A DNA stretch of 64,000 nt from an uncultured Bacteroides sp. (GTDB taxonomy: Bacteria; Bacteroidota; Bacteroidia; Bacteroidales; Bacteroidaceae). Shown here one piece after another: positions 9,519-36,184 of the stretch (positions are counted from its first letter, which is position 1; the number at the start of each line of letters is the position of its first letter). A program made the translations under genes and the position numbers. The stretch is taken from assembly GCA_945607605.1 (NCBI GenBank), contig CALYZE010000002.1:59215-123214 (forward strand), in the 5' to 3' direction. The notes beneath the pieces were generated by a model. The model saw only the letters and a program-made list of their open reading frames with translations, did not search any database and was not told the DNA's origin.

Positions 9519-9606
9519 CGGAGAGACGGGGATTCGAACCCCGGATGCCCTTTAGGAGCATACACGCTTTCCAGGCGTGCCTCTTCAACCACTCGAGCAC
9601 CTCTCC
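9519..9606 (-). tRNA. tRNA-Ser(GGA)
   Basis: The minus strand folds as an 88-base class II tRNA. Acceptor arms are GGAGAGG and TCTCTCC with discriminator G, and CA follows in the genome. The anticodon arm is CACGC-CTGGAAA-GCGTG with anticodon GGA, which reads UCC/UCU serine codons. A long variable arm (TGCTCC...GGGCA) and the T arm GGGGTTCGAATCCCC complete it. Confidence 0.97.
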
Positions 9607-26001: not shown

Positions 26002-27045
26002 TTAGCTATTTTCCGGACGAAGTTTACGAACCGTCACCGCTGTTTGCCACATTTCGCTTTCACGTAATGCTTTTAATTCAATATTCAATTTCTCACGATA
26101 ATCAGGTTTAGAATTACTATCAATAGAGATCTGAGCTTCATTTCCTGATTTTACACTAGCATACAATTTCTCAACAACCGGTTTAACAGCATCATGGAAT
26201 GGAGTCATCCAGTCTAAGGCACCACGCTGAGCCGTAGTAGAACAGTTAGCATACATCCAATCCATACCGTTCTTGGCAAAAAGAGGCATCAATGACTGAG
26301 TCAGTTCTTCTACGGTTTCATTAAATGCCTCAGAAGGAGTATGCCCGTTTTCACGCAGCACTTCATACTGAGCTAACAGCAATCCCTGAATAGCACCCAT
26401 CAACGAACCACGTTCTCCAGTCAAGTCTGAAGTAGCTTCACGCTGGAAAGTCGTCTCGAATAGATAACCTGAGCCAATACCGATACCTAACGCAATTGTT
26501 TTATCCATTGCTTTACCGGTAGCATCTTGATAAATAGCATAAGATGAGTTCAAGCCACGTCCTTCGAGAAACATGGTACGAAGTGAAGTACCTGAGCCCT
26601 TAGGAGCAACCATGAAAACATCAATATCTTTTGGAGGTACTACACCGGTGCGATCATGCCAAGTAATGGCAAAGCCATGAGAGAAATAAAGCGATTTTCC
26701 CGGAGTCAAATAAGGTTTGATAGTGGGCCACACAGACATTACAGCCGCATCAGACAACAGACACATGATAATAGTACCTTTTGCGCAAGCTTCTTCAATA
26801 CCGAACAACGTTTCGCCTTCTACCCATCCATCCGCAATTGCTTTCTCAAATGTTTTTCCAGGACGCTGTCCTACAATTACATTAAAGCCATTATCACGCA
26901 AATTACACGCCTGACCAGGTCCTTGTACCCCATAACCAATCACTGCAATCGTTTCATCTTTCAAAATTTCACGCGCTTTTTCCAAAGGATATTCTTCGCG
27001 GGTCATTACATTTTCGACCACACCGCCAAAATTCAATTGTGCCAT
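26002..27045 (-). CDS. ilvC: Ketol-acid reductoisomerase
   Basis: A 347-residue class I enzyme that isomerises and reduces acetolactate for valine and leucine, or acetohydroxybutyrate for isoleucine. The N-terminal Rossmann motif is VIGYGVQGPGQACNLRDNG; the QGPGQA form resembles plant-type enzymes rather than the usual GHAQA. The following VGQRPGKT loop contains an Arg and Lys suited to NADPH. The C-terminal domain has the metal-binding Asp/Glu helices (LTGERGSLMGAIQ, FNETVEELTQ). It is the last gene of the ilv operon, 51 bases after the thioesterase gene. Confidence 0.97.
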   Translation of the reverse strand: MAQLNFGGVVENVMTREEYPLEKAREILKDETIAVIGYGVQGPGQACNLRDNGFNVIVGQRPGKTFEKAIADGWVEGETLFGIEEACAKGTIIMCLLSDAAVMSVWPTIKPYLTPGKSLYFSHGFAITWHDRTGVVPPKDIDVFMVAPKGSGTSLRTMFLEGRGLNSSYAIYQDATGKAMDKTIALGIGIGSGYLFETTFQREATSDLTGERGSLMGAIQGLLLAQYEVLRENGHTPSEAFNETVEELTQSLMPLFAKNGMDWMYANCSTTAQRGALDWMTPFHDAVKPVVEKLYASVKSGNEAQISIDSNSKPDYREKLNIELKALRESEMWQTAVTVRKLRPENS

Positions 27046-27096: not shown

Positions 27097-27846
27097 TTAT
27101 TTCTCTGTAAATATCACTTTAGAACGGCAGACCACTTCAGTACCATTCTTTTTCACCTCAATATTATAAATACCGTCGCCAATATCATCTATGTAAAAAG
27201 TCAGTACATCTCCATAGTAACTTTCTGCTACATAAGCCATCTCAAAACGACGAATACGTTGTTCTTTATACAGTTTAATAGGGAAGAGATCTAGTATATG
27301 CTCAATATAACGGATACTGTTTACATGCCCATTAATATCAATGTCACTATACTTGGCTTCCAAGCTAGCCTTCACTTTCTCAGAGGCAACTTTGATGCGT
27401 GAAGGTTTTTCTATAGGACAAGGCTCCTCACAAACATAGTCAAGAATACTACCATGATGAAGAGCCAGTAAGTCAGCCGGTTTACGAGTATTCACACTAA
27501 TCATAGCCCATACAGAACGGGCATAACCTATTTTGTGCCCCTCCTTATTGATAAGAGCAAAATTACGATCGGTGAAAAGGCGATAGACATTTTCCACCCA
27601 AGTCTGAATAGAAAAGTCTTCATATTGATAAGGCATTTCATCCAACTCAATAGCCAAGCGAGACAATACCCATGTGTAATTATCCTCATTCAGTGTGGCT
27701 ATACCGAAACCACGGTCAGTAGAGTGAAATCCCGCACAGTTCAGCAAATGATTTCCAAGAACGCCCATGGTAAGATGTCCTGTAAAATCAACATGGAAAG
27801 GCTCAGCAATAAACTTATAAGTACCTATATTACTATTTTCACTCAT
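27097..27846 (-). CDS. Acyl-ACP thioesterase in the ilv operon
   Basis: A 249-residue double-hotdog protein of the FatA/FatB-like acyl-ACP thioesterase family. The first hotdog covers about residues 1-130. The second holds the catalytic motif DINGHVNSIRYIEHI (Asn and His about residues 170-180) with the acidic residue downstream in RRFEMAYVAESYYGD. It releases fatty acids from acyl carrier protein. It overlaps the ilvN gene by four bases, so it is tied to branched-chain amino-acid synthesis. Branched-chain acyl substrates are a reasonable guess from this, but not shown. Confidence 0.9.
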   Translation of the reverse strand: MSENSNIGTYKFIAEPFHVDFTGHLTMGVLGNHLLNCAGFHSTDRGFGIATLNEDNYTWVLSRLAIELDEMPYQYEDFSIQTWVENVYRLFTDRNFALINKEGHKIGYARSVWAMISVNTRKPADLLALHHGSILDYVCEEPCPIEKPSRIKVASEKVKASLEAKYSDIDINGHVNSIRYIEHILDLFPIKLYKEQRIRRFEMAYVAESYYGDVLTFYIDDIGDGIYNIEVKKNGTEVVCRSKVIFTEK

Positions 27847-28400
27847 TCTTCTTGTTTGCTTTGCCGGTATTTCGCTTCGCGATCAGCCAGATATTCATTC
27901 ACTCGCTCAAAACAACTAGTTGTAATGGCTATTCGCCCAGACCGGACAAATTGAAGTACACAATCCAATGCTCGCAATTCTTCATAAAGGTTAGTAATTT
28001 CATCACTCATACCATTCTTCTCAACAATAGAAAAGACAGCATTCACCTCTACAATGCGTGCATTGTATTTACGGATTACTTTAGAGACATTCGGATTTTC
28101 TTCCAAAACAGGAGTCGTTATTTTATAGAGAGCAATCTCATGTTGAAAGATTTCATCATCGGTAAAATAATGAGCCTGCAACACATCTATTTTTTTAGTT
28201 ATCTGTTTAGTAACCTTCTCGATAGTATCCTTATCAGCCCATGTTGTAATCGTGTATTTATGCACTCCCTTAATAGAAGAGGCTGATACATTCAAACTCT
28301 CGATATTTATTTGCCGACGGGTAAATACTGCCGTTACCTGATTCAGCAAACCAGCAAAGTTTTCTGAATGAACGATTATTGTATAGAGTTTTTTATCCAT
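27843..28400 (-). CDS. ilvN: Acetolactate synthase, small regulatory subunit
   Basis: A 185-residue protein with an N-terminal ACT domain (about residues 5-80: YTIIVHSENFAGLLNQVTAVFTRRQINIESLNVSAS) that binds valine for feedback inhibition, and a C-terminal domain (about 85-165) with SKVIRKYNARIVEV. It activates and controls the IlvB catalytic subunit encoded 35 bases upstream. The stop overlaps the thioesterase start. Confidence 0.95.
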   Translation of the reverse strand: MDKKLYTIIVHSENFAGLLNQVTAVFTRRQINIESLNVSASSIKGVHKYTITTWADKDTIEKVTKQITKKIDVLQAHYFTDDEIFQHEIALYKITTPVLEENPNVSKVIRKYNARIVEVNAVFSIVEKNGMSDEITNLYEELRALDCVLQFVRSGRIAITTSCFERVNEYLADREAKYRQSKQEE

Positions 28401-28435: not shown

Positions 28436-30184
28436 TTAGCACTCTAAAAGCATCTGATTAACAGAACCGCCCGGAGGTGTCATTGGTAGCACATTACTTT
28501 CTTCATCGACACATGCTTCCAATAAAAACGGACCATCAGTGGTCACCATATCCTCAATCGCTTTTTTCAAATCCTCACGGGTAACCGCTCTACGTGCCGG
28601 GATATCATAAGCAGATGCAATCTTCATATAATCAGGGTTCATCATCGGTGTGAATGAATAGCGATGATCAAAGAACATAGCTTGCCACTGACGAACATTA
28701 CCCAAGAAGTTATTGTTCAAAATAATCATCTTTACGGGCGATTTTTGTTCCATGATCGTACCTAATTCTTGCAAACTCATCTGAAAGCCACCATCACCCA
28801 TGAATACACATACCATGCGATCGGGACATCCAAAAGTAGCTCCTATGGCTGCCGGAAGGGCGAAACCCATTGTACCCAATCCGCCGGAAGTAACAATACT
28901 GCGTTTCTTGCTATATTTGAAATAACGAGCAGACATCATTTGATTTTGTCCAACATCATTAACCAAAATGGCTTCATGGTTGGTTGCTTCGCTCACGGCC
29001 CGTACCACCTCACCCATACTCAATACACTACTAGTAGGATGCAATTCAGGACGAATCACTTTTTCTTCTTCTTCTTGTTCGTAAGGAAGAAAACTCTCCA
29101 ACCACTCCTCATGCTTGGCTGCTTTCAACAATTTTGTTATGGCAGCTAAAGTTTCCTTGCAATCTCCTAAAACAGCAATATCCACCTTTACATTCTTATC
29201 TATTTCAGCAGGGTCAATATCAAAATGAATAATCTTTGCTTGTTTGGCATAAGTAGCTAGTTTGCCGGTTACGCGGTCATCAAAACGCATTCCCACCGCA
29301 ATAAGAACATCACAATTGTTCGTATTTACATTTGGACCGAGGTTTCCGTGCATTCCCAACATACCTTTATTCAAAGGATGCTCGGTAGGCAAGGCAGAAA
29401 GTCCTAATAAAGTACATCCCACAGGCATCTCTGCTTTTTCAATAAACGTACAAAGTTCTTGTTGCGCATTCCCTAGTTCAACACCCTGTCCAACCAAAAC
29501 TAACGGACGTTCCGCATTATTTATTAGGTCAGCTGCTTGCTGGATGGCTTCTGGATTCATTTCCGGAGCAGGAAGATAGCTACGTACATAATCTACTTTC
29601 GTAGGAATGTATTCAGTCTTTTCTAATTGAGCATTCTTGGCAAAATCTAATACGACCGGACCCGGACGTCCACTCTTTGCAATATAAAAAGCACGAGCCA
29701 CCGCCCAAGCTACATCCTCTGCTCGGCGAATTTGATAGCTCCATTTGGTAATTGGCTGTGTAATACCCACTAAATCGACCTCCTGAAAGGCATCAGTACC
29801 TAAGAAATTAGTTCCTACTTGACCGGCAATAATTACTATCGGGGTGCTGTCTATCATGGCATCAGCGATACCAGTAACAGTATTTGTAGCACCAGGTCCG
29901 CTGGTAACCAAACATACCCCCACTTGACCTGATACACGCGCAAAACCTTGCGCAGCATGAGCCGCTCCTTGTTCATGACGAACCAAAATATGGTTCAAAC
30001 TCTTCCGGTAATCGTATAAGACATCGAATACCGGCATGATGCTACCCCCCGGATAACCAAAAATTGTACTTACCCCCTGATGTTGCAAGGAGCGCATCAA
30101 AACTTCTGCACCTGTTATTACAGTCCCACTCCGATCCTCTCCCTGAGAGAGAGGGGAGTTATTTTTTTTATGGTCATGTGTCAT
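28436..30184 (-). CDS. ilvB: Acetolactate synthase, large catalytic subunit
   Basis: From the ATG at 30184 this is a 582-residue thiamine-diphosphate enzyme. The activating Glu is in HEQGAAHAAQGFAR, the FAD-binding middle domain spans about residues 200-340, and the ThDP motif is MGDGGFQMSLQELGT through NNNFLGNVRQWQ. It joins two pyruvates, or pyruvate and 2-oxobutyrate. An in-frame TTG at 30232 would add 16 residues, but AGGAA stands before ATG 30184, which is preferred. Residues 9-20 (NSPLSQGEDRSG) are encoded by a palindromic repeat-like element, so this N-terminal tail is probably dispensable. Confidence 0.95.
   Translation of the reverse strand: MTHDHKKNNSPLSQGEDRSGTVITGAEVLMRSLQHQGVSTIFGYPGGSIMPVFDVLYDYRKSLNHILVRHEQGAAHAAQGFARVSGQVGVCLVTSGPGATNTVTGIADAMIDSTPIVIIAGQVGTNFLGTDAFQEVDLVGITQPITKWSYQIRRAEDVAWAVARAFYIAKSGRPGPVVLDFAKNAQLEKTEYIPTKVDYVRSYLPAPEMNPEAIQQAADLINNAERPLVLVGQGVELGNAQQELCTFIEKAEMPVGCTLLGLSALPTEHPLNKGMLGMHGNLGPNVNTNNCDVLIAVGMRFDDRVTGKLATYAKQAKIIHFDIDPAEIDKNVKVDIAVLGDCKETLAAITKLLKAAKHEEWLESFLPYEQEEEEKVIRPELHPTSSVLSMGEVVRAVSEATNHEAILVNDVGQNQMMSARYFKYSKKRSIVTSGGLGTMGFALPAAIGATFGCPDRMVCVFMGDGGFQMSLQELGTIMEQKSPVKMIILNNNFLGNVRQWQAMFFDHRYSFTPMMNPDYMKIASAYDIPARRAVTREDLKKAIEDMVTTDGPFLLEACVDEESNVLPMTPPGGSVNQMLLEC
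30123..30160 (-). repeat. REP-like palindromic element inside the ilvB 5' end
   Basis: On the minus strand CTCCCCTCTCTCTCAGGGAGAGG, split by a small loop, forms a hairpin and continues into ATCGGAGTGGGA. The arrangement CTCCCCTCT, loop, GGGAG, GG is repeated in the neighbouring element at 30212-30253. Confidence 0.6.
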
Positions 30185-30211
30185 AACTAATCTATTCCTT
30201 TTTGTAAATAA

Positions 30212-30253
30212 TTTCACCGCTCCCTCTTTCAAAAAGAACCAGAGGGGAGATTT
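30212..30253 (-). repeat. REP-like palindromic element between ilvD and ilvB
   Basis: On the minus strand CTCCCCTCT, a 13-base loop, AGAGGGAG, then CGGTGAAAT. It matches the layout of the element inside ilvB. It may act as an RNA stem between the two genes. Confidence 0.55.
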
Positions 30254-30255
30254 AT

Positions 30256-32058
30256 TTAGTCAATCAATCTCACGGCACCTTTATCGGCCGAACTTACCAT
30301 TTTAGCGTAAGCTTTCAGAGCTTTTGACACTTCACGCTTACGAGTGACCGGAGTCATGGGGCGTGCCGCAAGTTCCTCATCCGTCAGTTGGACATTGATG
30401 GAACGTTCCGGAATATTAATTTCAATAATATCACCTTCCTTAATCTTACCGATATTACCTCCTGCAGCAGCTTCCGGTGATACATGTCCAATGCTCAATC
30501 CGGAAGTACCACCACTGAAACGCCCATCCGTAATCAGTGCACACTCTTTTCCCAAATGACGAGACTTTATATAAGAGGTAGGATACAGCATTTCTTGCAT
30601 TCCCGGGCCTCCTTTCGGTCCCTCATGGGTAATGACGACAACATCGCCACTGACGACTCTTCCTCTCAATATTCCATCGCAGGCAGCATCTTGTGAATCG
30701 AACACTTTGGCAGGGCCGGTAAATTTCCAAATACTCTCGTCTACGCCGGCTGTTTTGACCACACAACCATCTTGGGCTATATTTCCTTTCAAAACAGCCA
30801 AACCACCGTCTTTACTATAGGCATGCTCCAAGTCACGAATACAGCCTTCAGCACGATCGGTATCCAACTCTTTGTAATAAACACCTTGTGAACCCAATAC
30901 AAGATTGAATTTTCCGGCAGCCGCACTAGAGAATTTTTTAAGAGCCTCTTCAGTGACATTAGGGTTGGTAATATCATATTTATTTATCGCTTCTGCCAGT
31001 GTCATGCCATCTACACGCCGAATGCTTGTATCCACTAATCCGCCTTTTGCCAATTCGCTCATAATGGAAATGATTCCTCCGGCACGATTTACATCTTGTA
31101 TATGATATTTTTGAGTATTCGGGGCTACTTTACACAAACAGGGAATTTTACGAGACAATCGATCAATGTCATCCATGCTGAAATCAGTCTCTGCCTCGTG
31201 GGCAATAGCCAATAAATGAAGTACTGTGTTGGTAGAACCTCCCATTGCAATATCCAGTGCCATTGCATTCAGAAAAGCTTGACGAGTGGCAATGCTACGT
31301 GGAAGCACACTTTCATCCCCTTCTTCATAATATTTACAAGCGTTCTCTACAATTAGTTTAGCCGCATCTTTAAATAGTAGCTTACGATTTTCATGGGTAG
31401 CTACAATTGTCCCATTTCCAGGCAGTGCTAGCCCTAATGCTTCATTTAAGCAATTCATAGAGTTGGCAGTAAACATCCCCGAACAACTACCACATGTAGG
31501 ACAGGCGTGCTGTTCTATCTTGGCAACTTCCTTATCGCTAACGCTTTCATCAGCCGATTTAATCATAGCATCAATCAAATCCAGGTGTTGACCATTCCAT
31601 TCACCGGCTTCCATGGGACCACCGGAAACAAAGACAGTAGGAATATTCAATCGCATCGCAGCCATCATCATTCCCGGAGTGATTTTATCACAGTTGCTGA
31701 TGCAAACCATAGCATCAGCTTTATGGGCATTTATCATATATTCTACGCTATCTGCAATAATATCTCGCGAAGGCAATGAATAAAGCATACCGTCATGCCC
31801 CATAGCAATACCATCATCAATAGCAATCGTATTGAATTCCGCAGCAAAGCATCCCTGTTTTTCAATTTCCTCTTTGACAAATTGTCCTATCTCATGCAAG
31901 TGTACATGTCCTGGAACAAACTGGGTAAAAGAATTAACTATAGCGATTATGGGTTTACCCATCTGTTCTTTTTTCATGCCATTGGCTGTCCATAATGCAC
32001 GGGCTCCTGCCATACGGCGACCTTGTGTGCTGAGTGAACTACGTAACTGATGTTTCAT
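30256..32058 (-). CDS. ilvD: Dihydroxy-acid dehydratase
   Basis: From ATG 32058 this is a 600-residue iron-sulfur enzyme that dehydrates dihydroxy acids to the oxo acids of valine, leucine and isoleucine. Cluster cysteines are in [12 protein letters not shown] and [13 protein letters not shown]; the C-terminal part carries [11 protein letters not shown] and [22 protein letters not shown]. The start is chosen because AAAAGGAGA stands just before it; a GTG 12 codons earlier lies inside the attenuator stem. It is the first structural gene of the operon. Confidence 0.97.
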
Positions 32059-32065
32059 ATTACAA

Positions 32066-32074
32066 TCTCCTTTT
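32066..32074 (-). promoter_or_regulatory. ilvD: Ribosome-binding site deciding the ilvD start
   Basis: AAAAGGAGA on the minus strand, seven bases before ATG 32058. Such a clear purine-rich site is uncommon in this window and sets the start after the attenuator. Confidence 0.75.
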
Positions 32075-32081
32075 AATGAAA

Positions 32082-32111
32082 AAGCCTTTCCCACTATTGT
32101 GAGAAAGGCTT
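32082..32111 (-). terminator. Attenuator (regulated terminator) of the ilv operon
   Basis: On the minus strand AAGCCTTTCTCAC, loop AATA, GTGGGAAAGGCTT, followed by TTT: a 13-pair stem with one G-U pair. Its left arm can instead pair with GTGAGAAAGG (32157-32148) at the end of the leader peptide, giving an alternative 10-pair stem that would prevent termination. Confidence 0.88.
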
Positions 32112-32145
32112 CATAAACTATTAGCTAACGTACGAATACATACAT

Positions 32146-32159
32146 AACCTTTCTCACAC
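32146..32159 (-). promoter_or_regulatory. Antiterminator arm of the ilv attenuator
   Basis: GTGTGAGAAAGGTT on the minus strand. It contains the last codon and stop of the leader peptide and is complementary over ten bases to the left arm of the terminator at 32111-32099. A ribosome that finishes the leader and covers this arm frees the terminator; one stalled earlier leaves it able to pair. Confidence 0.8.
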
Positions 32160-32228
32160 TCTTGATGCCACCACCACGACGCGAATAATATGCAGGACTG
32201 CCAGGTTAATAGATGTATGTAAATTCAT
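32154..32228 (-). CDS. ilv operon leader peptide
   Basis: A 24-codon reading frame, ATG to TGA, too short for usual gene calls. It encodes six Val (four in a row after Ile-Ile-Arg), three Leu and three Ile, that is half its residues, and ends Arg-Val-stop on the antiterminator arm. It lies between the ilv promoter and the attenuator stem. Such a peptide senses charged tRNA-Val, -Leu and -Ile: stalling at the Val run would favour the antiterminator and expression of ilvD-ilvB-ilvN-thioesterase-ilvC. The codon content and the RNA pairing are seen directly; the mechanism is inferred from enteric ilv leaders. Confidence 0.88.
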   Translation of the reverse strand: MNLHTSINLAVLHIIRVVVVASRV

Positions 32229-32259
32229 AACTAATTATTCTTTTATTTTAATCATGTTG

Positions 32260-32290
32260 CAAAGGTAAAGGCTTTTTTATAAACTCCAAA
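32260..32290 (-). promoter_or_regulatory. Promoter of the ilv operon
   Basis: On the minus strand TTTG (32290-32287), 19 bases, then TACCTTTG (32267-32260). This is an exact Bacteroides promoter; transcription would begin about 25 bases before the leader peptide ATG. Confidence 0.85.
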
Positions 32291-35578: not shown

Positions 35579-36184
35579 ATGGAAACAGTAGAAAACAAGT
35601 ACATTACCGTAGCATACAAGCTGTACACAATAGAAAACGGAGAAAAAGATTTCATAGAAGAAGCTAATGCAGAACACCCCTTTCAGTTTATTTCCGGTTT
35701 GGGGATGACTTTAGAAACCTTCGAAGCACAGATTAAAGATTTAAATATCGGGGAGAAATTCGACTTTACTGTCCCTACTTCTGAAGCATACGGTGAGTAT
35801 GATGACGACCATGTTATTGACCTTCCTAAAGAGGTTTTCATCATCGAAGGCAAATTTGACGACGAACGCGTGGTGGAAGGTGCAATTATCCCTTTGATGA
35901 CTGCTGAAGGACAACGTGTCAATGGAAGCGTGGTGGAAGTAAAAGAAGATGTGGTTGTAATGGATATGAATCATCCATTGGCAGGCTGCGATCTGAACTT
36001 CGTAGGTGAAATAGTAATGTCACGTCCAGCTACTAACGAAGAGCTTGCAGAAGTTGCTAGCATGATGAGTGGTGGTGGCGGTGGTTGCGGCTGCGATAAC
36101 TGTGGAGGCGATTGTGGCGACGGAAATTGCGGTGATGGTAACTGCGGTGATGGCCACGAATGTGGTTGCGGCAGTTGTCACTAA
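35579..36184 (+). CDS. slyD: SlyD-like FKBP-type peptidyl-prolyl isomerase with Cys-rich tail
   Basis: A 201-residue cytoplasmic isomerase and chaperone. The FKBP domain is split by an insert-in-flap (about residues 75-125), with VEGAIIPLMTAEGQRVNGSVVEV and NHPLAGCDLNFVGEI as in SlyD. The last 35 residues are Gly, Cys, Asp and His, with three NCGDG-like repeats and a final CGCGSCH, a probable nickel or zinc store as in E. coli SlyD. An antisense frame over this tail is only low-complexity. It stands alone with its own promoter and terminator. Confidence 0.92.
   Translation: METVENKYITVAYKLYTIENGEKDFIEEANAEHPFQFISGLGMTLETFEAQIKDLNIGEKFDFTVPTSEAYGEYDDDHVIDLPKEVFIIEGKFDDERVVEGAIIPLMTAEGQRVNGSVVEVKEDVVVMDMNHPLAGCDLNFVGEIVMSRPATNEELAEVASMMSGGGGGCGCDNCGGDCGDGNCGDGNCGDGHECGCGSCH

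Follow-up and report, generated by a model that had tools for sequence, protein, structure and literature searches.

The DNA in front of ilvD on the minus strand of this stretch raises the question of whether an operon for branched-chain amino-acid synthesis is controlled by a leader peptide in a phylum, the Bacteroidota, in which translation is initiated with little Shine-Dalgarno pairing and promoters differ from those of E. coli. In E. coli and Salmonella, ilvGMEDA and ilvBN are preceded by leader-peptide attenuators with the helices 1:2, 2:3 and 3:4, and an original prediction, made from the letters of the sequence, had proposed the same logic for the present locus. The window, i.e. the whole stretch of 64,000 nucleotides analysed here, belongs to a genome of 2.65 Mb in 116 contigs, and its IlvD shares 91% identity with that of Bacteroides propionicigenes (L073). 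Based on the analyses described below, we consider it highly probable (roughly 0.92) that the region is a ribosome-mediated transcription attenuator which would sense charged branched-chain tRNA, Val-tRNA foremost, and would thereby set the read-through into ilvD-ilvB-ilvN-thioesterase-ilvC. The relevant features are the following:

32260..32290, minus strand: promoter, an exact match, with TTTG (-33) at 32290-32287, a spacer of 19 nt and TACCTTTG (-7) at 32267-32260
32154..32228, minus strand: leader peptide ORF MNLHTSINLAVLHIIRVVVVASRV, 24 codons and a TGA stop, read from the sequence and like the leaders in relatives
32213..32221, minus strand: outer strand of region 1, TACATACAT, within leader codons 3-6, with its partner at 32145-32137 (from folds)
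32203..32207, minus strand: region 1 segment AACCT, with the partner AGGTT at the 3' end of arm 2 (from folds)
32181..32185, minus strand: region 1 segment TTCGC, with the partner GTGAG in the 5' part of arm 2 (from folds)
32169..32180, minus strand: regulatory run GTC GTG GTG GTG, Val17-Val20 (from the sequence)
32148..32157, minus strand: arm 2, GTGAGAAAGG, the antiterminator strand, which includes the leader TGA stop (from sequence and pairing)
32137..32145, minus strand: ATGTATGTA, 3' strand of the outer 1:2 helix, just past arm 2 (from folds and permutation)
32099..32111, minus strand: arm 3, AAGCCTTTCTCAC, 5' side of the terminator (from sequence and pairing)
32079..32094, minus strand: arm 4, GTGGGAAAGGCTT, and the T run, which extends to 32079 (from sequence and fold)
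30256..32058, minus strand: ilvD, dihydroxy-acid dehydratase, first gene of the operon (NF009103 and TIGR00110 above cut-off)
28436..30232, minus strand: ilvB, acetolactate synthase large subunit, start codon uncertain (TIGR00118 above cut-off)
27843..28400, minus strand: ilvN/H, acetolactate synthase small subunit (TIGR00119 above cut-off)
27097..27846, minus strand: acyl-ACP thioesterase gene, inside the operon (PF01643 and PF20791 above cut-off)
26002..27045, minus strand: ilvC, ketol-acid reductoisomerase (TIGR00465 above cut-off)

The original prediction had named an exact promoter, a 24-codon leader with six Val (four of them consecutive), three Leu and three Ile, an arm overlapping the leader stop together with its exact complement, and a 13-pair terminator running into T before ilvD. 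Re-reading of the sequence found all of these parts in place, and every point that was checked proved correct. Branched-chain codons make up 12 of the 24 codons of the leader, CCTTTCTCAC (32108-32099) within arm 3 is fully complementary to arm 2, and the 13 pairs of the terminator stem (32111-32082) include one G-U pair, to which RNAfold adds one further G-U pair. The TTTG-19 nt-TACCTTTG arrangement was called by the Bacteroides-type promoter consensus, and transcription is expected to start near 32253. Directly 3' of leader and terminator lies the branched-chain operon, in which ilvD, ilvB, ilvN and ilvC pass curated cut-offs. The thioesterase gene, for which no NCBIfam match was obtained, shares four bases with ilvN and is followed by ilvC; perhaps it links branched-chain synthesis to fatty-acid release. 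Elsewhere in the window, an IS5-family transposase gene (NF033580; 34647-35330, plus strand) is flanked by a GH109-like oxidoreductase gene and by an ORF at 35579 which by eye appears SlyD/FKBP-like.

A position 5' of a biosynthetic operon would also fit a T-box or another ligand-binding riboswitch, with the ORF present by chance. However, the conserved content of the region, as outlined below, consists of codons and complementary arms, and an Rfam scan of the whole window at the gathering score gave no family at the leader, the single match being a tRNA at 9519-9606. The T-box riboswitch family (RF00230) had no match at that score in the window. The T-box reading was therefore rejected, and we assign a negligible chance to a riboswitch at this position.

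To follow the putative leader through related bacteria, ilvD relatives were collected from 201 genomes of the family, 179 of which gave a match, and from named contigs (the best 80 of 585 confirmed candidates). Upstream DNA, oriented by tblastn or by the listed strand, covers 90 of the 179 genomes (30 loci and 60 fetched regions). Each region received a leader score, the number of Ile, Leu and Val among 12 codons of an ATG ORF, with dinucleotide shuffles as control; 170 of 171 regions were scored, leaving out L103 (less than 150 nt). It should be noted that near-duplicates such as L001/L002 are present in the set and that the loci are related by descent, so that no count among them is a count of independent events. 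A score of at least 9 was found in 71/170 ilvD upstream regions versus 19/5100 shuffles, demonstrating the conserved Ile/Leu/Val leader frame which the original prediction had expected in relatives. At least 8 was reached in 95/170 regions versus 115/5100 shuffles, and a few of the weaker positives with a score of 8 are thus due to chance. With respect to genus labels, at least 8 was scored by 13/13 regions in the genus of the window (g1), 12/12 in g8 and 11/12 in g13 (the remaining one, L019, scoring 7), and the named carriers comprise Bacteroides graminisolvens, B. propionicigenes, Phocaeicola faecalis, Odoribacter laneus, Marinifilum and Labilibaculum. Among the regions read, none reached a score of 8 in g22 (0/8), g5 (0/5), g24 (0/4), g10, g15 and g21 (0/3 each), g12 and g14 (0/2 each) and g26 (0/1); in family members lacking the leader (g22, g24 and g5, e.g. 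L131, L136 and L141) this control appears to have been lost or replaced. None of the scored loci labelled as Desulfobulbaceae or Spirochaete reached 7 (L103 being unscored and L089 and L107 shorter than 180 nt), and 20 distant ilvD upstream regions from across the phylum yielded a score of 9 in L292 and L294 and of 8 in L277, L282 and L283. Upstream of the leader, the promoter pattern is present in 58/81 loci, compared to 0.3% of single-base shuffles (2 of the 83 unique loci described below were left out, their upstream DNA being too short).

Among Bacteroides/Phocaeicola-type loci, conservation of the peptide extends to residues other than Ile, Leu and Val (INLAVLHIIRVVVV). This would be in line with a nascent-peptide arrest, in which the peptide sequence of the leader, and not codon starvation, would convey the presence of a small molecule. 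In the wider set, however, hardly anything of the peptide is retained apart from its Ile/Leu/Val content, whereas spacing and arms persist, and part of the conservation among the closer loci may stem from the 1:2 structure that is formed with the leader itself. Accordingly, we regard peptide arrest as very unlikely.

The spacing between codons and arms is in line with attenuation by starvation codons. Among 78 loci (83 minus 5 with a 2:3 pairing weaker than -12 kcal/mol, the set also used for 1:2 energies), the last Ile/Leu/Val run ends 11.1 ± 2.4 nt before the base at which pairing in arm 2 begins, whereas the distance from the stop codon to arm 2 is 5.9 ± 10.2 nt, with a range from -8 to +29. 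In the window, Val17-Val20 and arm 2 are separated by 11 nt. The narrow spread was not built into the search, since the search for arm 2 extended over the whole interval between the end of the run and arm 3. In most g13-type leaders (e.g. L020 and L022) a one-base difference shifts the frame, so that the ORF crosses the arm and ends past it with TAG (...GGEEGSCM*). The position of the stop thus wanders, and the constant quantity is the distance between starvation codons and arm. Given the size of the ribosome footprint, this is what would be expected of a waiting ribosome whose leading edge has just to clear arm 2: the regulatory codons are positioned such that a waiting ribosome would free arm 2 and a finishing one would cover it. 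The codons themselves are biased, GTC and GTG accounting for 86% of Val codons in leaders (n=409) versus 36.5% of those in 33 long window ORFs. This bias suits a supply sensor, and part of it may serve the 1:2 structure.

Leaders and terminators occur together. A terminator-like hairpin (dG <= -12) is present within the 115 nt immediately upstream of ilvD in 82/95 regions with a leader score of at least 8 versus 8/67 with a score below 7, the 8 regions scoring 7 having been left out of this comparison. Without L001, which duplicates L002, 94 loci have a score of at least 8, and 90 of them carry a terminator (dG <= -8) no more than 110 nt from the leader stop; L121 and L123, examples of probable chance positives, lack one. 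Removal of loci identical in arm and region reduced the 90 to 83 unique loci. In 73/83 of these, the complementarity of arms 2 and 3 is significant at p <= 0.05 against single-base shuffles, which, together with the permutations below, agrees with the original prediction that 2:3 pairing and the terminator 3:4 exclude each other. An alignment of 36 close sequences of the Bacteroides/Phocaeicola type (38 minus identical rows) places 92.5% of the 2:3 cells in pairs, compared to 42-58% when slid by 1-3 columns. Two-sided changes within this alignment were found in 0/12 pairs of 2:3, 2/14 of 3:4 and 3/21 of 1:2. As the arms are nearly invariant among these close sequences, the evidence for covariation, which the original prediction had anticipated for the stems, comes from the wider set. 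For this, partners were permuted between all unique loci in 2000 trials. The own 2:3 partners of the 83 loci have a mean of -17.8 versus -14.7 for all pairs; restricting the set to the 23 loci without CCTTTCTC in arm 3 gives -15.2 versus -10.3, and the outer 1:2 helix, compared in 78 loci, gives -12.0 versus -8.9. In each of the three cases 0/2000 permutations reached the own mean. A joint change is exemplified by L096, with AACCATTCTC as arm 3 and GAGAATGGTT as arm 2. Across lineages, the partners of both 2:3 and 1:2 change together. The sequence elements, their conservation, the covariation of partners and the spacing are established by these comparisons, and the conserved leader frame and co-varying stems support the enteric-type reading that had been proposed for the locus.

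The folds brought out an element which had been absent from the original prediction, a 1:2 protector in which the leader itself pairs with arm 2. The window leader was folded as a whole, and the 5' domain alone was folded one by one in the 36 Bacteroides/Phocaeicola-type sequences. These per-sequence folds were used in place of an RNAalifold consensus, which gave a single short hairpin, at the terminator, for a broad alignment of 51 sequences, and the terminator and a few short stems for the 36-sequence alignment. Most of the 36 single-sequence folds contain a large 1:2 structure, in which the column pairs of the outer helix TACATACAT:ATGTATGTA are present in 19-22, those of AACCT:AGGTT in 21-22 and those of TTCGC:GTGAG in 27-29 of the 36 folds; some sequences, e.g. 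L037, differ in fold except for the TTCAC/GTGAG stem. In 70/78 loci, the minimum-energy fold pairs arm 2 with upstream sequence over at least 6 of 11 bases. Thus, a protector or pause structure is built with the leader coding region, its energy excess over shuffles being moderate (mean z -1.63, with z <= -1.5 in 42/78 loci), and its recurrence in the folds strongly suggests that arm 2 would be held by the leader with no ribosome in the way. When arm 4 is removed from the window leader, the fold is 2:3. Hence, 1:2, 2:3 and 3:4 were all obtained, and the three exclusive states of a classical attenuator can be drawn for this locus.

When region 1 is omitted and arms 2, 3 and 4 are present, the minimum-energy fold in the window is the terminator 3:4 with -30.1 kcal/mol, and not 2:3. 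As the terminator has the lowest energy in all cases with arm 4 included, it may be argued that termination here is partial, fixed and unregulated and that the leader ORF and the arm are incidental to it, and L054 and L083, which possess leader and terminator and lack a convincing 2:3 pairing, would fit such a view. A fixed terminator, however, does not predict the enrichment of leaders, the preference of arms for their own partners, the narrow spacing of codons and arm or the similar his, leu and phe leaders described below, and we consider it most improbable. For the attenuator, the preference for 3:4 at equilibrium implies that 2:3 must win kinetically, before arm 4 is made.

The regulation could then proceed as follows. 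If Val (or Ile/Leu) is scarce, the ribosome would wait on the Val run and cover region 1, so that 1:2 would be blocked, while its leading edge would stop just short of arm 2. The freed arm 2 would pair with arm 3 as soon as this has been made, 3:4 would come too late, and the operon would be transcribed. At good supply, the ribosome would reach the stop inside arm 2 and cover the arm, 3:4 would form and transcription would stop. If the leader is not translated, 1:2 would hold arm 2, and termination would again be the default. We infer from the arrangement of the elements that the leader is translated, that charged tRNA affects termination and that a ribosome closely follows the polymerase. The spacing makes a coupling of polymerase and ribosome at this locus likely, and such coupling would be needed at least locally. 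In a compatible variant of the attenuator, a polymerase paused at the 1:2 hairpin would wait for a late ribosome, and close following would be dispensable. Pausing at such 1:2 hairpins is established for enteric attenuators, and the hairpin of the present leader can form before arm 3 exists. The variant, which differs in timing only, is possible at somewhat less than even odds, and both close following and a pause at 1:2 fit the sequence.

A survey of sister operons in 16 genomes of the genus of the window revealed a leader and terminator of like design in front of hisG in 9/15 loci (L172-L186), of leuA in 10/15 (L217-L231) and of pheA in 12/14 (L247-L260). The leaders of the window's own genome are MKNMVAHHHHHHPDE for hisG (L179) and MKSFTYAYYFFFYFYFSQKVEREFVCIK for pheA (L247). 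Its leuA was not found; the sole PF08502 match, L232, is a second LeuA-like gene without a leader, and the loci of this second gene (L232-L246) were kept out of the leuA count. The distance from codon run to arm 2 is 15.4 nt for his, 13.1 nt for leu and 11.2 nt for phe, and the 2:3 pairing has p <= 0.05 in 9/9 his, 12/12 phe and 1/10 leu leaders. In leu leaders such as L220 and L228, 2:3 is exact over nine bases (GGAAGTGAG with CTCACTTCC), and in L229 it is altered on both sides (GGAAGTGG with CCACTTCC). Upstream of thrA (L261-L274), a short ORF rich in Thr and Met, of the type MxxYYPHTVTSMCTMTLRG, is conserved in 10/14 loci and may serve as a sensor of Thr and Met or have another role; a terminator was not evident by eye in three sequences, and the ORF was not counted as an attenuator. 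For trpE, neither a terminator in the 330 nt upstream nor a convincing Trp leader was found in 15 loci. Finally, L091, L101 and L105 (Marinifilum, Labilibaculum and Marinifilaceae) carry two Ile/Leu/Val leaders in series before ilvD, each with a terminator. Within each locus the own arms pair better than the crossed ones, the pairing of unit 1 in L101 and L105 comprising six bases only, and the series might possibly constitute a two-gate attenuator.

The element of the window resembles the enteric ilvGMEDA and ilvBN attenuators in its Val/Leu/Ile leader, 1:2 protector, 2:3 antiterminator and 3:4 terminator in front of a branched-chain operon. It differs in its Bacteroides-type promoter, a leader with no Shine-Dalgarno sequence evident by eye, the dominance of the Val run and the order of the operon, in which ilvD comes first and a thioesterase gene is enclosed; the likeness is one of design, and no sequence kinship is claimed. 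Predicted amino-acid attenuators are said to reach the Bacteroidetes/Chlorobi in the work of Vitreschak et al. (2004, FEMS Microbiol Lett). Within the same phylum, 'strong clues' for leader-peptide attenuation before amino-acid operons have been reported for Flavobacterium psychrophilum, in which conserved structured elements occur upstream of pheA and hisG (PMC9723704), and the idea is thus not new for the phylum. That proposal is, as far as its accessible text goes, a suggestion of one sentence based on the transcriptome, with 'ilv' absent from the main text (PMC9723704), whereas the present analysis provides a worked-out Bacteroidales ilv element with covariation. Outside the enterics, Corynebacterium glutamicum ilvBNC is described with a three-hairpin attenuator of branched-chain genes, in another phylum and operon (PMC11857589). 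The tandem attenuators of Salmonella mgtCBR (PMC3641672) resemble L091, L101 and L105 in that a single leader region contains a pair of short ORFs; genes and signal are different, and in the latter loci both ORFs are rich in Ile/Leu/Val and each has its own terminator. In Bacteroides thetaiotaomicron, 5' UTRs harbour sORFs reminiscent of leader peptides, with no term for amino-acid biosynthesis in the available text (PMC7366714), and a Bacteroides ilv attenuator is not reported in the available portions of PMC4833913 and PMC8305728. Among the matches listed for the open literature, which leaves subscription journals mostly outside the scope, there was no paper on a Bacteroides ilv attenuator.

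The ilv element is strongly supported, and possibly the surprising aspect is the extent of such leaders in the order Bacteroidales. We are inclined to think that ribosome-mediated attenuation is a main and old form of amino-acid control in this order, comprising ilv, leu, his, phe/tyr and perhaps thrA, with codons about 11-15 nt before the arm and two-gate versions of the Marinifilum type. The narrow distance between codons and arm provides a simple search rule for further attenuators, and the ilv element, which in the window matches no Rfam family, hints at a leader-peptide regulon for amino-acid synthesis in the Bacteroidales. If attenuation is indeed so widespread, such leaders would require RNA polymerase and ribosome to remain synchronised in the phylum. 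The element would offer a natural reporter for the question of whether transcription and translation are coupled in Bacteroidota.
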